Positions 4,637 through 29,984 of a stretch of DNA of 64,000 nt are shown here, in pieces (the first letter of the stretch is position 1; each line of letters begins with the position of its first letter). The notes under the pieces are model-generated. The model searched no databases and was not told the DNA's origin. It worked only from the letters and a program-made list of their open reading frames with translations. Position numbers and translations under genes: made by a program. Where the stretch lies: the NCBI RefSeq assembly GCF_000019685.1, contig NC_011229.1, positions 558,001 to 622,000 of the forward strand, in the 5' to 3' direction. The DNA is from Borrelia duttonii Ly (GTDB lineage: Bacteria; Spirochaetota; Spirochaetia; Borreliales; Borreliaceae).

Positions 4637-4982
4637 TTTTCTCCATTTCACAATTTCCATTAAATGAGGCTCCTGCTTCTATGAATAGTTCTTTTGTTGT
4701 TATGTTGCCAATTAATTTACCAGTTTTATAAATTTTGATTGTCTCTAAAGCCTCTACATTTCCTTTCATTGTACCATGATTGAGAAAATTATTACATTTA
4801 ATTTCTGCTTCTACATGGGCTTTTTCTCTTAGATATATTGAACTTGTAGAATTTATAAATCCTTTGAGTATGCCATCAATGATTATAGGCTTACTACTTT
4901 CTATATATCCTTCAAAGTTAAAATTACTCTTTATGACATTTTGGGTACTGTTTTCTTCAAATTCTAGGGTATCTATGCTCAA
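4626..4982 (-). CDS. bactofilin family (DUF583) cytoskeletal protein
   Basis: 118 aa. Bactofilins polymerise into beta-helical filaments that act in cell shape, polarity or peptidoglycan placement. The central region shows the family pattern of short beta repeats: 'GYIESSKPIIIDGILKGFIN', 'HGTMKGNVEALETIKIYKTG', 'GNITTKELFIEAGASFNG'. The start is TTG at 4982, supported by AGGAG five bases upstream. A long hairpin (4993-5031) abuts that ribosome site. It overlaps the downstream TPR gene by 11 bases. The size is typical of small bactofilins. Confidence 0.88.
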   Translation of the reverse strand: MSIDTLEFEENSTQNVIKSNFNFEGYIESSKPIIIDGILKGFINSTSSIYLREKAHVEAEIKCNNFLNHGTMKGNVEALETIKIYKTGKLIGNITTKELFIEAGASFNGNCEMEKNDK

Positions 4983-4992
4983 TGTTTCTCCT

Positions 4993-5031
4993 AAAAATGA
5001 ATGCTTATTTTTATTTTAAGCATTCATTTTT
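4993..5031. terminator. 15-bp hairpin between BI-1 gene and bactofilin gene
   Basis: Perfect 15-nt arms at 4993-5007 and 5017-5031 flank a 9-nt loop. On the minus strand the stem ends in TTTTT directly before the AGGAG of the bactofilin gene. It reads as a terminator for the BI-1 gene, but its edge touches the next ribosome binding site, so it could also affect translation. Confidence 0.6.
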
Positions 5032-5070
5032 TATTTTACATTTAAATTTTAATTTATTGATTTTTAGATT

Positions 5071-5766
5071 TTAATCTCTTCTTTGTCCCAAAAATCTTAG
5101 TAAGTATAAAAATAAATTTATGAAATCTAAGTAAAGTTTTAAAGAAGCTACTACTGCCATTCTATTTTTGATTTCAGTACCATCTTCTAACATATTATCC
5201 ATTTTAGAAATATTTTGAACATCATAGGCTGTTAAACCTGTAAATAAAATGACACCTAAAATTGAGATTAGAAAATTAAGCCCTGAACTTCTAAAGAACA
5301 TGTTAAGTATAGATGCGATGATGATGCCCCATAATCCCATCATAAAATAGCTACCCATTTTTGTAAGATCTGTACTTGTTGTGTGTCCATAAAATGACAT
5401 TGCAAGGAAAGTTAAAGAAGTAATTCCAAATGTATAAAATATTGAACCTTGAGTATATATCATAAATATAGAAGATAGTGTTACTCCTGTTAAAGCTGAG
5501 TACATGAGAAAAAGGGCTGTTGCTGTTCCACTTGATATTCTATTAATTGCACCACTTATTGCATAAACAAATCCGAATTGTATAAGTATTATGGCTATAT
5601 ATGACATTGGATTTGTGAATATTATGGCTCTAATTATTGCATTTTCAGATGTTGTGTATGCAAATATTGCAGATATTAAAAGCCCAACTGACATTAATCC
5701 AAAAACATGAGCCAAAAATTTATTTTTTATTTTTATTTCTTGTTTATCTTGCGTTAATTCAAGCAT
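5071..5766 (-). CDS. Bax inhibitor-1 (BI-1/YccA/TMBIM) family membrane protein
   Basis: 231 aa with about seven hydrophobic segments and a short cytoplasmic N-terminus. Family signatures include 'HVFGLMSVGLLISAIFAY' near the N-terminus, 'LTGLTAYDVQNISKM'-like sequence ('FTGLTAYDVQNISKMDNM') near residue 180, and the C-terminal 'ASLKLYLDFINLFLYLLRFL'. Bacterial members are inner-membrane proteins proposed to act in calcium/proton leak or membrane proteostasis. The ATG at 5766 follows AGGAGG. It lies 12 bases downstream of fusA on the same strand and is probably cotranscribed with it. From memory it corresponds to BB0539. Confidence 0.9.
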   Translation of the reverse strand: MLELTQDKQEIKIKNKFLAHVFGLMSVGLLISAIFAYTTSENAIIRAIIFTNPMSYIAIILIQFGFVYAISGAINRISSGTATALFLMYSALTGVTLSSIFMIYTQGSIFYTFGITSLTFLAMSFYGHTTSTDLTKMGSYFMMGLWGIIIASILNMFFRSSGLNFLISILGVILFTGLTAYDVQNISKMDNMLEDGTEIKNRMAVVASLKLYLDFINLFLYLLRFLGQRRD

Positions 5767-21500: not shown

Positions 21501-23786
21501 TTATTTTATTATTCTTACGTTTCTAAATTCCGATGCTAAGTTTTTGTATAGAGTATTTATATCATTTGTGTATTCTACTTTTATTAAATTGCGAAAAAAT
21601 TTTTCTTTATGTTTTAGTGATGGATTAATAAAGTGAGTTTTGACATTATATTTTGGGATTAATTTGTAAATTTCTTTTGCCCTATGTAGATTTTTTGTTG
21701 GTTCTATTTCAATATAATATCCATTGGATTTTTTAAAATCAAATTCATTACTTTGGACTTTAAAATTATAATTATTTAAATGTGTATCTGGATATATCTT
21801 AAATTCAGCGTTTTTTATTATGGCATTTTTATTTGTTGTTTGTATATCTTGTGGATAGGAGCCTTGTGTTATTTGTTGTGATTTTCTGTTTTTGTGTTTT
21901 GTTGAATCTTTTTTTACATATTTTGTTAAACCTTCTTTAAGTTTTAGAATGTCATTTTCATTATTTGTCAATCTTTTATCTAATATATTGATTTGATCTT
22001 GTTTTTGTTGAATTATATTTTTATTTTCTTTGTATAATTCTTCGTTTTCTTCAATCTTATTTTTTAGTGAATTTATTATTTTTTCTATTGAAAGTAAGTT
22101 ATTTTCAATATTTTTGAAGCCATTGTCATGGTCATTTTTGAATTTTGTTAATTCTTGGTGGAATGCTAATAGGATTTCTCCATTATTATTAATTTTATTA
22201 TCAAGGTCACCTAATATTTGAGTGTGATTATTAAGGGAATCTTTATTATTATTAATTTTATTATCAAGGTCACCTAATATTTGAGTGTGATTATTAAGAG
22301 AATCTTTATTATTATTAATTTTATTATCAAGGTCACCTAATATTTGAGTGTGATTATTAAGGGAATCTTTATTATTATTAATTTTATTATCAAGGTCACC
22401 TAATATTTGAGTGTGATTATTAAGAGAATCTTTATTATTATTAATTTTATTATCAAGGTCACCTAATATTTGAGTGTGATTATTAAGGGAATCTTTATTA
22501 TTATTAATTTTATTATCAAGGTCACCTAATATTTGAGTGTGATTATTAAGGGAATCTTTATTATTATTAATTTTATTATCAAGGTCACCTAATATTTGAG
22601 TGTGATTATTAAGAGAATCTTTATTATTATTAATTTTATTATCAAGGTCACCTAATATTTGAGTATGATTATTAAGGGAATCTTTGTTGTTATTAATTTT
22701 ACTATCAAGGTCACCTAATATTTGAGTATGATTATTAAGAGAATCTTTGTTGTTATTAATTTTACTATCAAGGTTACCTAATATTTGAGTGTGATTATTA
22801 AGAGAATCTTTGTTATTATTAATTTTATTATCAAGGTTACCTAATATTTGAGTGTGATTATTAAGGGAATCTTTATTGTTATTAATTTTACTATCAAGGT
22901 TACCTAATATTTGAGTGTGATTATTAAGAGAATCTTTGTTATTATTAATTTTATTATCAAGGTTACCTAATATTTGAGTGTGATTATTAAGAGAATCTTT
23001 GTTATTATTAATTTTATTATCAAGTTCATTTAGTATAGTATTTTCTGAGTTGGAATATTCTTTTTCTTGAATATATGTATCGTATGTATTTTCTGTGGGT
23101 GGGTAATTGTAACTTTCATTTGGTATATATTCTTTTTGATTGTCTTCATATCTTTGTTCATTGTAATCATTATAATCATTGTTTTTTGCTTGATAAGAGT
23201 CTTGATAAGGATCATTTAGTAAATTTTCTTTTGTATTAATTAAATATTTTATTCTTTCAATTTCTTCTTTTAAACTTTTAATTAGCATTGCATATTCTTC
23301 ATTCTTTCTTTTGATTGATTCTATATTTGTATCATTTAAAAGATTTTCTATGTTTGTTATTTTTTTTTCATAGTTTTTAATTCTAAATTTTAAGTTGTCT
23401 ATATTTTGTATGAACCAATCATCATCCATATTATTTTGTTCGAAATCGGAATCTTTTGTAAAGATGTTATTTCTTATTTGTCTGTTATTTGCTATTTGGA
23501 TTTGTGATGAATCTTTAAAACTAAGTTTATTAAGTTGTTTTTTTAATGTGTGTATATCATTTTCTTTTGAAACTTTATTTTGTTTGAAATAAATGGTTTT
23601 TTTTTCATTATTTTGATTGTTAAAATCTTCATTTAGATCTTCTCTAGGAATATAAATTGTTGAATAGTTGAACATGTAATCTTTGGTTGTGTATTGTTTT
23701 TGTTCTCCAAAAAGTAATGTACACGAGATCAACATAAAAATTTTATGGATCATGGAAGCTATTTTTTTATATTTACCCATAAACAT
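21501..23786 (-). CDS. exported coiled-coil repeat protein with SPOR-like C-terminus
   Basis: 761 aa from ATG 23786; a second ATG at 23780 is equally possible, with GAGG just upstream of both. An N-terminal hydrophobic segment ('IHKIFMLISCTLLFG') is a signal peptide; 'LISC' could even be a lipobox. Residues about 60-240 are Asn/Gln-rich and helical. Then come 13 perfect-length copies of a 21-residue unit (LDNKINNNKDSLNNHTQILG plus N or D) and further coiled coil. The last 75 residues ('GYYIEIEPTKNLHRAKEIYK' to 'FRNVRIIK') resemble a divergent SPOR domain. I infer a long rod anchored to peptidoglycan. BB0553 from memory; function unknown. Confidence 0.82.
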   Translation of the reverse strand: MFMGKYKKIASMIHKIFMLISCTLLFGEQKQYTTKDYMFNYSTIYIPREDLNEDFNNQNNEKKTIYFKQNKVSKENDIHTLKKQLNKLSFKDSSQIQIANNRQIRNNIFTKDSDFEQNNMDDDWFIQNIDNLKFRIKNYEKKITNIENLLNDTNIESIKRKNEEYAMLIKSLKEEIERIKYLINTKENLLNDPYQDSYQAKNNDYNDYNEQRYEDNQKEYIPNESYNYPPTENTYDTYIQEKEYSNSENTILNELDNKINNNKDSLNNHTQILGNLDNKINNNKDSLNNHTQILGNLDSKINNNKDSLNNHTQILGNLDNKINNNKDSLNNHTQILGNLDSKINNNKDSLNNHTQILGDLDSKINNNKDSLNNHTQILGDLDNKINNNKDSLNNHTQILGDLDNKINNNKDSLNNHTQILGDLDNKINNNKDSLNNHTQILGDLDNKINNNKDSLNNHTQILGDLDNKINNNKDSLNNHTQILGDLDNKINNNKDSLNNHTQILGDLDNKINNNKDSLNNHTQILGDLDNKINNNGEILLAFHQELTKFKNDHDNGFKNIENNLLSIEKIINSLKNKIEENEELYKENKNIIQQKQDQINILDKRLTNNENDILKLKEGLTKYVKKDSTKHKNRKSQQITQGSYPQDIQTTNKNAIIKNAEFKIYPDTHLNNYNFKVQSNEFDFKKSNGYYIEIEPTKNLHRAKEIYKLIPKYNVKTHFINPSLKHKEKFFRNLIKVEYTNDINTLYKNLASEFRNVRIIK
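22182..23024 (-). repeat. in-frame 63-bp tandem repeat, 13 copies plus a 24-bp partial copy
   Basis: Thirteen units of exactly 63 bases fill 22206-23024, and the first 24 bases of a fourteenth follow at 22182-22205. Each unit codes for 21 residues, i.e. three heptads. Copies differ at a few bases only: GDLD versus GNLD, LDNK versus LDSK, and silent changes such as GGG/GAG before AATC. Units at the 3' (low-coordinate) side are the most alike, pointing to recent expansion there. Confidence 0.97.
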
Positions 23787-24080: not shown

Positions 24081-25949
24081 ATGAAATTAGAAAATATGGA
24101 TGAAGTTTGGGCTTTGCCAGTTTGTTGTAATATTAAAAATTCGATTATTGAAGATTTTAAGGTGTCAGATGAATACAAAAATCAAGTGTTTAATATAAGT
24201 TATAAAGATAATATTATCTTAAAATTTATTGATATCATTGATTCTCATGAATTTAATTTAAAACTTTTTGATAATCACATAGATTTTGAAGGGCAAGTAC
24301 CTTTAGTTTTATATTCTGATAACCTAGATACTTTATTAGAAGCAGAATCGAATGTTATTTTTGAATTAAGACCTATTGAACAAAATGATATTTGTTGTAG
24401 TTTGAACCTTCAAGAATCAGATGAATTTAAAATTTATACTTCGCATTATGAATTTTCTGATCATTTAAATTATTGTAGTGACTTTATTTTAGTTAAGGTA
24501 TTCTTTAGTGATGATAATTTAATAATTGATGCTGATCTTGATAATATTGCATTAGTTAAGCAGATTATTAGTGATAACTTTTGTATTTCTAAAGATAAGA
24601 TTATTATTAATTCTATTAATAATAATTGTGTTAATATTTTATTTCCCATTGTCTTTAATGCTGTTGTGCAAGGTATAGTGATTTCTAAAAAACTTGGTCT
24701 TAAGGTTAATGTTATTTACTATAAAAGGCATTTTTTAATAGCAGAGTCTTTAAATTTAAAATTTTCTGTTGTAAATTACTTGTCAATTGAAAATAGGCTT
24801 AATAAGATTATGTTGGAGCTTAAAATTAATAGACCCTTGAACTTTTTATATAAATTTTATTTTAATTATCTTAATAAGATTTTTAGTAATTTATTTTTTG
24901 ATGTATTAGTACATATTAATCTTATATCTATTAATAGTAATTCTATTTTTTTTTGTGATAATTATTTTTTATTTGGAATTTCTGCTTATAGTTTTATTTA
25001 TTCGAATTTTTATAATCTTGCGGTTAGTTTATCACTTGAACCCCTCAATTATTTGCTTGGTTATGTGAAGAGTGAATATAATATTTTTTTTAAGCTTTTT
25101 AAGGAGATGGATTTAAAAAATTCTATTATGCGCAAATCGTCTTCTATAAGTTTAAATAATGAATATAATGTCTTAGATGTTAAGAGAAAAGGCGTAGGAT
25201 TTGCCTTTTTAAATTTAGATTCTAATATAGATTTTGCTTTATTAGATATTGGTAATTTAACTATTTCTATGAATTTGTATAAAGATAAATTGGATGTATT
25301 TATTCCTTATAAAATTATAGATATTAATCTGGTGAATTATTTGAAGAATGTTTTAGCTAAAGCTTTTAATTTGTCTTATAATTGTGTCAATTTTCTTGTT
25401 GCTGATTCTTTCAAAGATGATATTAAATTTTCTTGTTCCTTATTAAAGGAGTCTTATTTTATTGAGAGCGCAGTTTTAACTATGAAAGAAGAGCTTTCTG
25501 TTGTAATTGATGATGAGGGGAGAAAAGAATATCCAATTATAGTTAGTAGAAATTTTGTTGTAGATATAGATGCAAAGTTTTATGTTGCTTGTTCTCTTGA
25601 GGTTGATGTAATAATACATTCTTTTCATATTATATTTAGTAATGTTAATTTTTTTATTGAAAATGGTAAATTTGATAAGCTTAGGGTAAATAGCAAACGT
25701 GCATTTTCAATTTTCGGTTTGGCAGTTGATTACGTTTTTGGGAATATTACTTATGATGTTATTGATTCTGTAGGACTGGAATTTATTGAAGATGGTGAAT
25801 TTATTTTTTCTTTTAGGGTATTATTTATTGCATCTGTTTCTGCAATAAGATCATCATTAATTCAAGCTTTTGATTTTGATATATGTAAAACACCTATTGA
25901 TCTTAAAAGTATTTTAGATGATTGGAGTGTGAGAATTGATACTAATTAG
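24081..25949 (+). CDS. degenerate molybdopterin-subunit homologue of the xanthine dehydrogenase family
   Basis: 622 aa; functional XDH/CO-dehydrogenase large subunits have about 750. The order of conserved segments is recognisable: 'EGQVPLVLYSDNLDTLLEAE' (about 70-89) fits the family region before the veyEpLp stretch; 'LIIDADLDNIALVKQIISDN' and 'IVISKKLGLKVNVIYYKRHF' fit the segments around the GGGFGGK loop; and the C-terminal 'ASVSAIRSSLIQAFDFDI...' fits the 'ANAI.DA' end. The cofactor loop itself reads 'SINNNCVNI' (about 178-186) and the C-terminal catalytic-Glu motif is gone, so no molybdenum chemistry is expected. The start is uncertain because no ribosome site is visible. Overlaps the next gene by 14 bases. 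Confidence 0.65.
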   Translation: MKLENMDEVWALPVCCNIKNSIIEDFKVSDEYKNQVFNISYKDNIILKFIDIIDSHEFNLKLFDNHIDFEGQVPLVLYSDNLDTLLEAESNVIFELRPIEQNDICCSLNLQESDEFKIYTSHYEFSDHLNYCSDFILVKVFFSDDNLIIDADLDNIALVKQIISDNFCISKDKIIINSINNNCVNILFPIVFNAVVQGIVISKKLGLKVNVIYYKRHFLIAESLNLKFSVVNYLSIENRLNKIMLELKINRPLNFLYKFYFNYLNKIFSNLFFDVLVHINLISINSNSIFFCDNYFLFGISAYSFIYSNFYNLAVSLSLEPLNYLLGYVKSEYNIFFKLFKEMDLKNSIMRKSSSISLNNEYNVLDVKRKGVGFAFLNLDSNIDFALLDIGNLTISMNLYKDKLDVFIPYKIIDINLVNYLKNVLAKAFNLSYNCVNFLVADSFKDDIKFSCSLLKESYFIESAVLTMKEELSVVIDDEGRKEYPIIVSRNFVVDIDAKFYVACSLEVDVIIHSFHIIFSNVNFFIENGKFDKLRVNSKRAFSIFGLAVDYVFGNITYDVIDSVGLEFIEDGEFIFSFRVLFIASVSAIRSSLIQAFDFDICKTPIDLKSILDDWSVRIDTN

Positions 25950-26397
25950 CTTTAATTTGAATGGAGAAAATCTTTCAAAGAGTATTGGACTTTCTTTGAG
26001 TACTAAAGAGCTTTTAATTAGTGTTTTTTATTCAGGGGAGAGAAATCTGATTGAAAGAATGAATAAAAGATTTTCATTAGTTCTTTTGGATTTAAGACCG
26101 GTATATTCATCTTTAGTGCCGGCTTTTATGTTAAATGGGCGTAGTATTATTACTGTTGAGGGGTTGGAGAACACAACCTTTTATAATACATTAACTAAAG
26201 TTTTGTTGGAGAGTGATTTTGGATTTTGTGACAGTTGTTTTTCATCCAATGTATTATTATTTTATTATCTTTTAAAACGTAAGGTTATAATTAGGACTGA
26301 TATTTTAGGATATTATAGTACATTAAAGTGTCATTGTCTTGATGTTAATACCTTTTTAGACCTTTATTTACGGTTGGAAGAATTAGAGAAAAAATGA
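25936..26397 (+). CDS. degenerate iron-sulfur-subunit homologue of the xanthine dehydrogenase family
   Basis: 153 aa, the normal length of XDH small subunits. Residues 4-12 ('ISFNLNGEN') match the N-terminal strand, and 'VLLDLRPVYSSLVPAFMLNG' (49-68) plus 'SIITVEGL' (70-77) match the family almost word for word. The plant-type [2Fe-2S] site (GxCGxC and SCLVPA) has lost every Cys: the loop reads 'ERMNKRFSL' and the last Cys is Ser59. The second site keeps C98, C132 and C134, lacks the first Cys (F95), and gains C101. Start is TTG 25936, with GGAG eight bases upstream; translation is coupled to the preceding gene. Confidence 0.75.
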   Translation: MILISFNLNGENLSKSIGLSLSTKELLISVFYSGERNLIERMNKRFSLVLLDLRPVYSSLVPAFMLNGRSIITVEGLENTTFYNTLTKVLLESDFGFCDSCFSSNVLLFYYLLKRKVIIRTDILGYYSTLKCHCLDVNTFLDLYLRLEELEKK

Positions 26398-27254
26398 GTA
26401 GTGTGAAGGTGTATTACCCTGAAAATTTTAATGCACTTGTTAGTTTATTTCAGGAAAGTTCAAAAAATTATATAATTTATAATGAAATTGATTTTCATAA
26501 AAATTCTGAAATTTTTATGAAAAATGACTCTGATAGCTTTTTTATAATAAATAATTTTGAAAAGTTTAATAAGATTTTTCTTAGAAGTAATTTTTTGGAA
26601 ATAGGTCCATGTGTTACTTATGATGCTATTTTGCAATTTGGAGAGAAAAATATTCCACGTTTATTTTATGAATTTATTTCAATGTTAAACGATAGAATAT
26701 GTCTAAATAGCATTAATATTGCTAATGGGTTTTATTATAAAAACACAATTTTTGATTTATATCCTTTATTGTTAAGTCTTGATGCTCAAATTGAATTTAA
26801 GAATATTTTGACTAAAAAAAATTATACTTATAATGCTTATAGCATTAATAGGGATGATTATATACAAAACCGTCATGTTTTATTTTTAAGCAAATTAAAA
26901 TTTCCAATTACAAATTTGTGGAATAAGAGTTTTTGTAGTAGGATATTTGATTATACTTTTTCATTTAATTTTTTAGACGAGATGAATATTATTTTTATTT
27001 GTGTTTTGTTGAATGTTAAAAGGAATATTATAAGTGATTTTCTGATGAAAATATTTTATAATGACAAGGTTATTACTTTAAGGGATTTTCAAGTTTTACT
27101 TTTAAACAAAACTTTACCTTTATCTTTAGTTGAGATTGAAGATTCTCTTAGAATGTTAGATAAAAGTATTCGTGATGTTAAAAATTTTAGTTTGGAAGAG
27201 AGAAGTTTGAAACTTATAAAAAATTTTTATTTTGATATATTGTTTAATTTTTAG
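26394..27254 (+). CDS. degenerate FAD-subunit homologue of the xanthine dehydrogenase family
   Basis: 286 aa, the normal length of XDH/CoxM FAD subunits. Matching segments: 'YYPENFNALVSLFQE' (7-21), 'FLEIGPCVTYDAILQF' (67-82), 'IPRLFYEFISM', 'FDLYPLLLSLDAQIEF' (120-135) and a C-terminal 'IRDVKNFSLEERSLKLIKNF' equivalent to DVRGS-x-YR. The two flavin-diphosphate loops are lost: AGGTD is 'IIYNEID' (27-33) and TIGGN is 'SINIANG' (106-112). So the fold is kept and FAD binding is doubtful. ATG overlaps the previous stop (ATGA). It is last in the three-gene unit, before the pts promoter. Confidence 0.72.
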   Translation: MSSVKVYYPENFNALVSLFQESSKNYIIYNEIDFHKNSEIFMKNDSDSFFIINNFEKFNKIFLRSNFLEIGPCVTYDAILQFGEKNIPRLFYEFISMLNDRICLNSINIANGFYYKNTIFDLYPLLLSLDAQIEFKNILTKKNYTYNAYSINRDDYIQNRHVLFLSKLKFPITNLWNKSFCSRIFDYTFSFNFLDEMNIIFICVLLNVKRNIISDFLMKIFYNDKVITLRDFQVLLLNKTLPLSLVEIEDSLRMLDKSIRDVKNFSLEERSLKLIKNFYFDILFNF

Positions 27255-27350
27255 TCTTAAAAAATTATCATTATTAAAAATTGTTGGTTTTTGGAGTTAG
27301 TTTTAATAGAAAGGCAATAGAATTTAATTTATCAATTTGTTTTTATGCAT

Positions 27351-27356
27351 TATAAT
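27351..27356 (+). promoter_or_regulatory. candidate -10 box for ptsH-ptsI-crr
   Basis: TATAAT in the 159-base gap after the XDH-like genes, 58 bases before the ptsH ATG. The matching -35 region (TTTATC) is weak. Confidence 0.45.
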
Positions 27357-27413
27357 ATTTATTTGTTAGTAATTTAATCAAAAAATAATTATTCAAATAA
27401 GGGGCTTAAGCTT

Positions 27414-27674
27414 ATGGTTAAAAAAGAGGCTACAATTAAGGCTGTTAATGGTTTACATGTGAGACCAGCATCAACATTTGTCAAAAAGGCTAAGGAATAT
27501 GCTAGTGATATAACTATTGAAGCTGATGGAAAATCTGTTAGCGGCAAAAGTTTGTTTAGATTGCAAACTTTAGAGTTATCTTCTGGTAAGAAGCTTATGG
27601 TTTGTGCTGAGGGTGATGATGAGGAGAGAGCTGTTAATGAACTTGTTGAACTTATTGAATCTTTTAAAGAATAA
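27414..27674 (+). CDS. ptsH: phosphocarrier protein HPr
   Basis: 86 aa. Accepts phosphate from enzyme I on His15 ('AVNGLHVRPASTFVKKA') and passes it to sugar-specific EIIA proteins of the phosphotransferase system. The Ser46 region reads 'VSGKSLFRLQTLELSSG'; no HPr kinase gene is in the window. AAGGGG precedes the ATG. First gene of ptsH-ptsI-crr. Because Borrelia lives on glycolysis of imported sugars, this operon is central to its energy supply. BB0557 from memory. Confidence 0.96.
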   Translation: MVKKEATIKAVNGLHVRPASTFVKKAKEYASDITIEADGKSVSGKSLFRLQTLELSSGKKLMVCAEGDDEERAVNELVELIESFKE

Positions 27675-27689
27675 GTGTGGAAGGTTAAT

Positions 27690-29411
27690 ATGACTTTATC
27701 GGGGAAAAGAATATCTAAAGGGATAGGTATTGGAGAAGCACTTTTTATCAAGAAAGATTTTGATAAATTAATTGATAAATCAAAAATTACTTCTTCACAA
27801 GTTGATGGTGAGATAAAAAAATTTAATGATGCTAAGTTAAAGGCTATATCTGTTTTAAGAGATCTTACAAGAAAGGTTGTATCTCAACTTGGAGCTGATA
27901 AGGAAGGCATTTTTGAAGGACAGATGTTAATTATTGAAGATGATGAGCTTTCTGAGTCTGTTATAAATTTTATTAAGAATGAAAATTGTGGCGCTGCTTA
28001 TGCTGTTTATCTGTCTTTTAAAGAATTGATAGCAAGTGTAGAAGAATATGCAGATGTTTATTTAAAAGAGAGAGCTTCTGATTTTAAAGACATTAGAAAT
28101 AGACTTATTGCAAATATTTTAGATAAGGTAGTTGATCTTGCTGAGGTTAAGAGAGATGTGGTGTTAATTACTGAAGAATTAACACCTTCTGATACAATGC
28201 AGGTTGATTTAAGTTATGTTAAGGGTTTTATCACCACGGTTGGTGGTGAAACTTCTCATGCTGCTATTTTAGCAAGAACAATGGGACTTCCGGCTCTTGT
28301 GATGTCACCTTTAGATATTGATAAAATTAAAGAAGGTGAGCAGTTGATAATTGATGGACTCTCTTCAATAATTATTAGTAGTCCTTCATCTAGTGAACTT
28401 GATAAATATTCTCATAAGATACTAAAATATAATGAGCATGAGAAAGAGCTTTTTGAATTAAAGAATCAAGATGCAGTAACAAAAGATGGTATTAAAATAT
28501 TTTTAAAGGCTAATATTGGAACTCCAACAGATATTTTTTATGTTAATAAATATGGACTTGATGGCATAGGGCTTTTTAGGACAGAATTTTTGTATATGGA
28601 GTCTTTAAAGCCTCCTACAGAAGATGAACAGTTTGAAGCTTATAAAAAAGTTGTTGAGAATATTGAAAAAAAAGGCGTTGTTACTATTCGTACTCTTGAT
28701 ATTGGAGGAGATAAAGAAATTCCATATTTTAATTTTCCAAAAGAAGAGAATCCTTTTCTAGGATATCGTGCTCTTAGAATGTATATGGATTATGAAAGTT
28801 TGATTCAAAGTCAATTTAATGCAATTTTTAGAGCTAGTCATTATGGCAAAATAAGGATTATGGTTCCTATGCTTGCTAGGTATGAGGAACTTGAGATAAT
28901 TAATTATTTTGTAGATAAAGCCAAGGAAAATTTAAAATCTAGGAACTTGCCTTTTGATGAAAATTTGGAAGTTGGATGTATGATAGAAGTTCCTTCTGCT
29001 GCTTTATTAGCAGCTGAACTTGCTGATAAGTTGGATTTCTTTAGTATTGGTACTAATGATTTAACTCAGTATACTTTGGCTGTGGATAGGGGTAATCAGA
29101 AAATATCAAATTTGTATGATAAATATAATCCTGCTGTTTTAAAATTGATTAAGAATGTTTTTGATGCTGGTCATAGTGCTGGTATTGATGTTTCTGTTTG
29201 TGGTGAACTTGGAGGAGATGAAGCTGGAGCTTTAATTCTCATTGGACTTGGATTTAAATCTCTGAGTATGGTTCCTAGTGCTTCGCTTAGGATTAAGTAT
29301 TTGCTTAGAAAATATACTATGTCTGATTTGAATGAGTTGGCAATTAAAGTTTTAAATAGCAAATCAGAATCAGAGACTTTAAAATTTTTAGATAAATATA
29401 TAGGAGATTAA
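27690..29411 (+). CDS. ptsI: PTS enzyme I (phosphoenolpyruvate-protein phosphotransferase)
   Basis: 573 aa from ATG 27690, chosen because GGAAGG lies just before it; the in-frame GTG at 27675 directly after the ptsH stop is unlikely. It takes phosphate from PEP onto His190 in 'GGETSHAAILARTMGLP'. The PEP-binding barrel shows 'GIGLFRTEFLYM', 'TLDIGGDKEIPY', 'GCMIEVPSAALLA' and the C-terminal 'FSIGTNDLTQYTLAVDRGN'. It serves all PTS sugars. Sixteen bases after ptsH, four bases before crr. Confidence 0.97.
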   Translation: MTLSGKRISKGIGIGEALFIKKDFDKLIDKSKITSSQVDGEIKKFNDAKLKAISVLRDLTRKVVSQLGADKEGIFEGQMLIIEDDELSESVINFIKNENCGAAYAVYLSFKELIASVEEYADVYLKERASDFKDIRNRLIANILDKVVDLAEVKRDVVLITEELTPSDTMQVDLSYVKGFITTVGGETSHAAILARTMGLPALVMSPLDIDKIKEGEQLIIDGLSSIIISSPSSSELDKYSHKILKYNEHEKELFELKNQDAVTKDGIKIFLKANIGTPTDIFYVNKYGLDGIGLFRTEFLYMESLKPPTEDEQFEAYKKVVENIEKKGVVTIRTLDIGGDKEIPYFNFPKEENPFLGYRALRMYMDYESLIQSQFNAIFRASHYGKIRIMVPMLARYEELEIINYFVDKAKENLKSRNLPFDENLEVGCMIEVPSAALLAAELADKLDFFSIGTNDLTQYTLAVDRGNQKISNLYDKYNPAVLKLIKNVFDAGHSAGIDVSVCGELGGDEAGALILIGLGFKSLSMVPSASLRIKYLLRKYTMSDLNELAIKVLNSKSESETLKFLDKYIGD

Positions 29412-29414
29412 CTT

Positions 29415-29984
29415 ATGGGATTTTTAGGGTTTTTTAAAAAGGTGGCTACTTTAGATTTGATAGCACCTGTTAGTGGCAAGGTTGTTTCAATTGATAAGGT
29501 GCCAGATGAAGCTTTTGCTGAGAAAATAGTTGGTGATGGAATTGCAATTATGCCTACTGGAAATGAACTTGTTGCGCCTTGTGATGGGAATATTGGTAAG
29601 ATTTTTAAGACTAATCATGCATTTAGTCTTGAAACCAAAGAGGGAATTGAAATTTTTGTGCATTTTGGTATTAATACTCTTAATTTAAATGGTAAGGGAT
29701 TTACAAGAGTTGCTGAGGAAGGTATGAGTGTTAAGCAGGGTGATGTTATTATTAGACTTGATCTTGAGTATCTAAAAGCCCATGCAGAGTCAATAGTTAC
29801 TCCTGTTGTTATTGCAAATTCTGATGAAGTTTCAAGCATTGAGTATGTGTTTGGCAAGCTTGATGATGATTCTGAATATGTTGTGTCTTCTACTACTACT
29901 TTAACTGAAGATATTGAGACTAAAATATTACAAGCTAGTCCTGTTGAAGCGGGTAAAGATATAGTTCTTAGAGTTAAAAAGTAA
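29415..29984 (+). CDS. crr: glucose-type PTS enzyme IIA (Crr)
   Basis: 189 aa, a soluble stand-alone EIIA. H83 ('IFVHFGINTLNLNGKGF') is the phosphorylated His, and H68 ('NHAFSLETKEG') is its partner, with the 15-residue spacing seen in E. coli Crr. Other signatures are 'APVSGKVVSIDKVPDEAFAE' and 'GDGIAIMPTG'. It hands phosphate to EIICB proteins encoded elsewhere (glucose/maltose type). Whether it also has a regulatory role is unknown. AGGAG precedes the ATG; the stop codon is inside a 38-base palindrome. Confidence 0.95.
   Translation: MGFLGFFKKVATLDLIAPVSGKVVSIDKVPDEAFAEKIVGDGIAIMPTGNELVAPCDGNIGKIFKTNHAFSLETKEGIEIFVHFGINTLNLNGKGFTRVAEEGMSVKQGDVIIRLDLEYLKAHAESIVTPVVIANSDEVSSIEYVFGKLDDDSEYVVSSTTTLTEDIETKILQASPVEAGKDIVLRVKK

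Follow-up and report, generated by a model that had tools for sequence, protein, structure and literature searches.

The xanthine oxidase family, to which xanthine dehydrogenase (XDH), CoxMSL, 4-hydroxybenzoyl-CoA reductase and glyceraldehyde oxidoreductase belong, is characterized by a set of molybdenum (Mo), iron-sulfur (Fe-S) and flavin adenine dinucleotide (FAD) subunits encoded in one operon. In Borrelia burgdorferi, the gene trio BB0554-BB0556, a putative XDH, has phenotypes in peroxide stress and in ticks, its transposon mutants being depleted under both conditions (PMC5333916; PMC6516651). Two of these genes, bb0554 and bb0555, are listed among those needed in larval ticks (PMC6516651), and a review citing Phelan et al. 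2023 names the trio xdhACB (PMC10566445). Here, we analysed the same genes in a 64,000-nt window of the relapsing-fever species Borrelia duttonii Ly (NC_011229.1, 558,001 to 622,000), the whole stretch of DNA studied, to which the coordinates below refer unless another genome or locus is named. We refer to the three genes as L (large, Mo-subunit-like), S (small, Fe-S-subunit-like) and F (FAD-subunit-like). While the name xdhACB implies an XDH, the residues argue against XDH catalysis. Taken as a whole, the trio is best explained as coding for a Mo-free complex of XDH fold around one redox cluster, a reading to which we give a probability of roughly 0.55.

The window carries, as the original prediction made from the sequence alone had described, three consecutive open reading frames (ORFs) on the + strand. 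L (24081..25949, 622 amino acids) was delineated from the ORF list, profile-profile comparison, motif scans and Foldseek. S (25936..26397, 153 amino acids) starts at a TTG codon, overlaps L by 14 bases and was defined by its ORF, profiles and Foldseek, while F (26394..27254, 286 amino acids) overlaps S by 4 bases and was defined by its ORF and profile searches. Gene order (ligA, repeat protein, L, S, F, ptsH, ptsI, crr) and published descriptions identify the three as orthologues of BB0554, BB0555 and BB0556, respectively. Lengths had been called near normal, which holds for S and F but not for L, since canonical large subunits have about 710-800 amino acids.

Profile and structure comparisons found a relation to the XDH family for all three subunits, as had been proposed, and on this evidence L, S and F are homologues of its Mo, Fe-S and FAD subunits. 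Single sequences of S and F matched the NCBIfam models for glyceraldehyde dehydrogenase gamma (E=7.7e-5) and XdhA (E=1.2e-4), respectively, and FAD_binding_5 was matched by 34 of 35 Borreliaceae F proteins. For L, neither single-sequence nor profile searches against Pfam, NCBIfam and PDB returned a useful match. A profile of S searched against 198 genomes of the phylum revealed homologues in other Spirochaetia down to E=1.7e-12. These relatives clearly belong to the XDH family (A4 against bovine XDH, E about 1e-65), and MoCoBD_1, MoCoBD_2 and Ald_Xan_dh_C occur in all 20 of their operons. Profile-profile comparison with the Spirochaetia relatives aligned Borrelia L end to end over 566 columns (probability 96.9%, E=1.5e-10) and gave E=5.6e-18 for S and E=5.7e-20 for F, while reversed profiles, column-shuffled profiles and crossed subunits all stayed below 1% probability. 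L was assigned on this basis, because no other comparison resolved it. Foldseek returned only XDH-family proteins among the top 25 for the S model; the top 50 for the L model, used as support only, were exclusively XDH and aldehyde oxidases or oxidoreductases. The domains MoCoBD_1, MoCoBD_2, Fer2_2 and FAD_binding_5 and the cluster I cysteines described below are shared with the xanthine oxidase family.

Motif scans and alignments confirmed that the molybdopterin loop, the plant-type Fe-S cysteines and both FAD loops are replaced in Borrelia. The molybdopterin motifs GGxFG, RGFG and GQG were found in none of 12 Borrelia L proteins, compared to 18/18 canonical spirochaete XDH large subunits. 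The L region aligned to the GGxFGG loop (24603..24650, +) reads IINSINNNCVNILFPI, and conservation of the old pterin-loop positions does not exceed the gene average. All four cysteines of the plant-type [2Fe-2S] cluster II are missing from each of 35 Borreliaceae S sequences. In F, IYNEIDFHKNS stands at the first FAD phosphate loop position (26475..26507, +), where relatives have AGGT, and NSINIANGFYYKNT at the second (26706..26747, +), where relatives have ATIGGN; both loops (AGGT, TIGGN) are replaced in Borreliaceae. Mean conservation is 95% in the second loop region compared to a mean of 83%, and the first loop is not specially conserved. We rejected the view that new ligand sites under special conservation have taken the place of the loops, as the two together reached only p about 0.06.

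To describe the complex as stripped of its cofactor sites was nevertheless too strong, since a second [2Fe-2S] motif, that of cluster I, had been overlooked. Its two halves, Cys98-x2-Cys101 (26227..26238, +) and Cys132-x-Cys134 (26329..26337, +), are invariant and the motif is complete in 35/35 Borreliaceae S sequences; 30 of the 35 contain no cysteine besides these four. Because they are strictly kept while the other sites were lost, we favour a redox role over the non-redox job put forward in the original prediction, which is not the natural inference from this pattern. Invariant cysteines also occur in the other two Borreliaceae subunits: Cys15 and Cys504 of L in 35/35 and Cys16 in 34/35 (24123-24128, 25590-25592), and Cys73 and Cys203 of F in 35/35.

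The three genes are maintained in all Borreliaceae sampled. L is present at the same place as one open frame in 36/36 genomes, all of which have the order L-S-F-ptsH-ptsI-crr. A script recovered the 14-base L/S overlap in 35 of the 36, having mis-set the start of L in the last. A TGA reported inside L of one genome (G001) was rejected, as it merely reflected a later start codon. Median pairwise dN/dS, calculated with a Nei-Gojobori script for pairs with dS of 0.05-1, was 0.28 for L, 0.18 for S and 0.12 for F, similar to ligA (0.23) and ptsI (0.15), with crr at 0.09. Open, syntenic frames and dN/dS values far below 1 point to purifying selection and not to decay. The view of a kept and repurposed XDH-derived complex, which had been made to depend on intact frames in other Borrelia, therefore stands.

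The loss of Mo had been placed in Borrelia. However, orthologous operons of Treponema and other Spirochaetia lack all three molybdopterin motifs as well, and the loss is shared by Borreliaceae, Treponema and other Spirochaetia rather than being a Borrelia event. The L-S-F order was found in 20 Spirochaetia loci (all three genes in 19) and in 20/20 independent Treponemataceae loci, which had been left out of profile building, and none of the L genes in either set encodes any of the three motifs. S is present in 114 of 118 Treponemataceae genomes, including 87/87 near-complete ones, compared to only 4/118 for MoeA, indicating that the distribution of the complex does not follow that of the Mo cofactor. 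MoaA and MoeA were absent from the sampled Borreliaceae, in agreement with the earlier statement that Borrelia is not known to use the cofactor, and only 3 class-level Spirochaetia genomes have MoaA/MoeA, the MoaA match being weak in two of the three. The Spirochaetia operon thus differs from the xanthine oxidase family in that no member studied has molybdopterin motifs and most carriers lack Mo cofactor synthesis; Borreliaceae additionally lack cluster II and the FAD loops. One genome of the Treponema family (G054, C1:2143736-2146208) encodes an XDH Mo subunit that scores as canonical (E 3.4e-68), along with its small subunit, and a search for MoaA and MoeA in this genome found neither.

The other cofactor sites have fared unequally in the relatives. 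All 20 independent treponemes retain the second FAD loop, as ATIGGN or a close variant. Cluster I is complete in 20/20 independent treponeme loci and in 19/20 of the first Spirochaetia set, that is in 39/40, the exception being locus L108; in some treponemes CC replaces its CxC. Cluster II has disappeared completely from 35/35 Borreliaceae, from L108 and from a 1.14-Mb Treponema; five others have lost part of it. In the tree, this Treponema is placed among relatives with an intact cluster (100% support), so that cluster II was lost independently, more than once. Read from these sequences, the order of loss would be Mo first and everywhere, cluster II repeatedly, FAD in Borreliaceae and cluster I last, making cluster I the part that selection appears to hold on to.

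Neighbouring genes of the relatives point to another context. A CapD-like dehydratase gene (Polysacc_synt_2) lies upstream in 18/20 Spirochaetia loci, and a DegT/DnrJ/StrS aminotransferase gene lies directly 5′ of L in 18/20 Spirochaetia loci, mostly overlapping or a few bases away, and in 18/20 independent Treponemataceae loci. Because CapD and DegT adjoin the relatives' operons, the ancestral context was probably nucleotide-sugar synthesis, and Borrelia would have kept the complex without these partners: neither gene lies directly upstream in Borreliaceae, where DegT-profile matches are limited to the SufS gene, which adjoins a SufU-like gene. The two genes resemble the CapD and DegT pairs of Pgl/Pse type; to our knowledge, an XDH-like trio in third position is not part of the known PglF-PglE-PglD sets. 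The DegT enzymes of the relatives keep the pyridoxal phosphate (PLP) lysine (SFYATK), and hence resemble aminotransferases rather than the pyridoxamine phosphate (PMP)/Fe-S deoxygenases, which depend on an external reductase. We therefore rejected sugar deoxygenation of E1/E3 type.

These observations are consistent with the following scenario. An L-S-F heterotrimer would go back to a molybdenum hydroxylase of the XDH family in which molybdopterin was lost before Borreliaceae and Treponemataceae diverged. At that stage the Mo-free complex, which most Treponema still have, would have carried two [2Fe-2S] clusters and FAD and been encoded behind a CapD-type dehydratase and DegT. In Borreliaceae the sugar partners, cluster II and the FAD loops would then have disappeared, leaving cluster I together with the fold and the unit of three genes. 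The present role of the complex would most likely be that of a single-cluster redox module, either a one-electron carrier or an oxidant-sensitive sensor or scaffold, under peroxide stress. In this scenario the four cysteines of Borrelia S would hold a true [2Fe-2S] cluster, the subunits would still assemble and the redox state would be the function. A broader version, in which a core Mo-free XDH-derived Fe-S (flavo)protein of the Spirochaetia arose as a nucleotide-sugar redox partner and was cut down in Borreliaceae to a single-cluster sensor or carrier, among the last Fe-S proteins of bacteria described as living nearly without iron, is one that we hold only tentatively and consider somewhat more likely wrong than right.

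Several observations weigh against the reading as a single-cluster redox complex. It is commonly said that B. burgdorferi has no need for iron, in which case zinc, or no metal at all, could sit at the four cysteines. The SufB/D-type core (SUFBD) was found in 0/36 Borreliaceae genomes, and a radical-SAM/HemW-like protein (L155, genome G033) lacks the CxxxCxxC motif, its sequence being SLYINMSFCYKDFSIF; this protein seems, from its residues, to be a second one to have dropped its Fe-S cluster. Together, the absent core and the lost motif suggest that the use of Fe-S clusters is shrinking. Cluster I is not needed everywhere either, since L108 keeps the operon without nearly all of the cysteines. 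The phenotype seen by transposon sequencing may be indirect, and assembly of L, S and F is putative, the AlphaFold model of L being poor (mean pLDDT 50). At L108 itself (4823-5299, Spirochaetia genome G162), 7/8 Fe-S cysteines are gone while L-S-F and the CapD-DegT neighbours are kept, and the encoded complex may work without any cluster.

The leading rival follows from the same points, and the metal is our main doubt: the four cysteines would be ligands of a non-redox metal, such as zinc, that only serves to hold S together, and the complex would be a structural or ligand-binding scaffold without a redox role, as the original prediction had suggested. Low iron use by Borrelia, the lack of both SUFBD and the HemW-like Fe-S motif, and the disappearance of the FAD, Mo and cluster II sites are all compatible with this idea, for which we see about one chance in four. 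On the other hand, the residues and their spacing (C-x2-C...C-x-C) are exactly those of the cluster I ligands, and they are kept in treponemes that have FAD and often cluster II. SufS, too, persists in Borreliaceae, next to a SufU-like protein in which the three cysteines and the CGD motif are intact, which makes cluster supply plausible; judged from sequence, the pair could serve either minimal Fe-S supply or sulfur transfer. The two genes (L121, L123) lie side by side at about 80-92 kb on Borreliaceae chromosomes.

Less probable is that the complex is still a catalytic oxidoreductase with a different cofactor in the old Mo pocket. Its substrate would be, for instance, a nucleotide sugar in Treponema, with Borrelia using a derived substrate. 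The tight coupling to the CapD and DegT genes in the relatives would fit, as would the FAD loop and the mostly complete pair of clusters of treponemes, which leave an electron path in place, and roughly half of the relatives retain the C-terminal GxGE-type motif on which the catalytic Glu of XDH resides. However, Borreliaceae have neither the FAD loops nor the sugar partners, their DegT matches being SufS only, the positions of the former pterin loop show no special conservation, and the PLP lysine makes the DegT enzymes of the relatives aminotransferase-like. A true XDH, as implied by the published annotation (PMC10566445) and by the shared fold family and subunit set, is very improbable and contradicted by the sequence, since the molybdopterin motifs, the FAD loops and Mo cofactor synthesis are all absent. 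Slow decay of a dead operon, to which the many lost motifs and the extreme divergence (branch length about 3 substitutions per site in the tree) might point, is refuted for Borreliaceae by the 36/36 intact and syntenic loci, the low dN/dS and the mutant phenotypes.

Downstream of the trio, ptsH, ptsI and crr (27414..29984, +) of the phosphotransferase system (PTS) are conserved neighbours by synteny and start 130-179 bases 3′ of it in Borreliaceae; their relation to the complex is putative only. Two roles suggested earlier gained nothing: we found no evidence for purine binding, nor for regulation of the PTS genes, and the non-Borrelia relatives examined have nucleotide-sugar genes as neighbours. 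No Rfam family or terminator was found in the region, and promoter matches were at chance level. The gap at 27255-27413 corresponds to the BB0556/BB0557 site of ncRNA0083, which changes in a BadR experiment in B. burgdorferi (PMC6117026). On the other side of the operon, a gene on the - strand (21501-23786) encodes a protein with a 63-base (21-residue) repeat in 13.4 copies that are 96% alike (22182-23028). Its orthologues are syntenic and far more divergent, and both the number and the sequence of the repeats seem variable.

The resemblance of the trio to XDH is known. Reportedly, it had already been published by Phelan et al. 2023. The cofactor pattern with cluster I kept and the Mo-free operon found across spirochaetes may be new. 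Within the literature consulted (PMC5333916, PMC6516651 and PMC10566445, with Phelan et al. 2023 outside this scope), we found no report of residues that speak against XDH catalysis, of an ancient shared Mo-free state, of the CapD/DegT context or of cluster I retention.

If our reading is correct, a Mo enzyme family that does without Mo and is yet near-universal in a bacterial family would represent a second life of a large complex. The name xanthine dehydrogenase would be challenged, and the adjoining sugar genes would point to a candidate pathway for the Treponema complex. For the Lyme agent, a virulence-linked locus would become a testable question, namely whether S contains iron, whose answer bears on how iron-free Borrelia really is.

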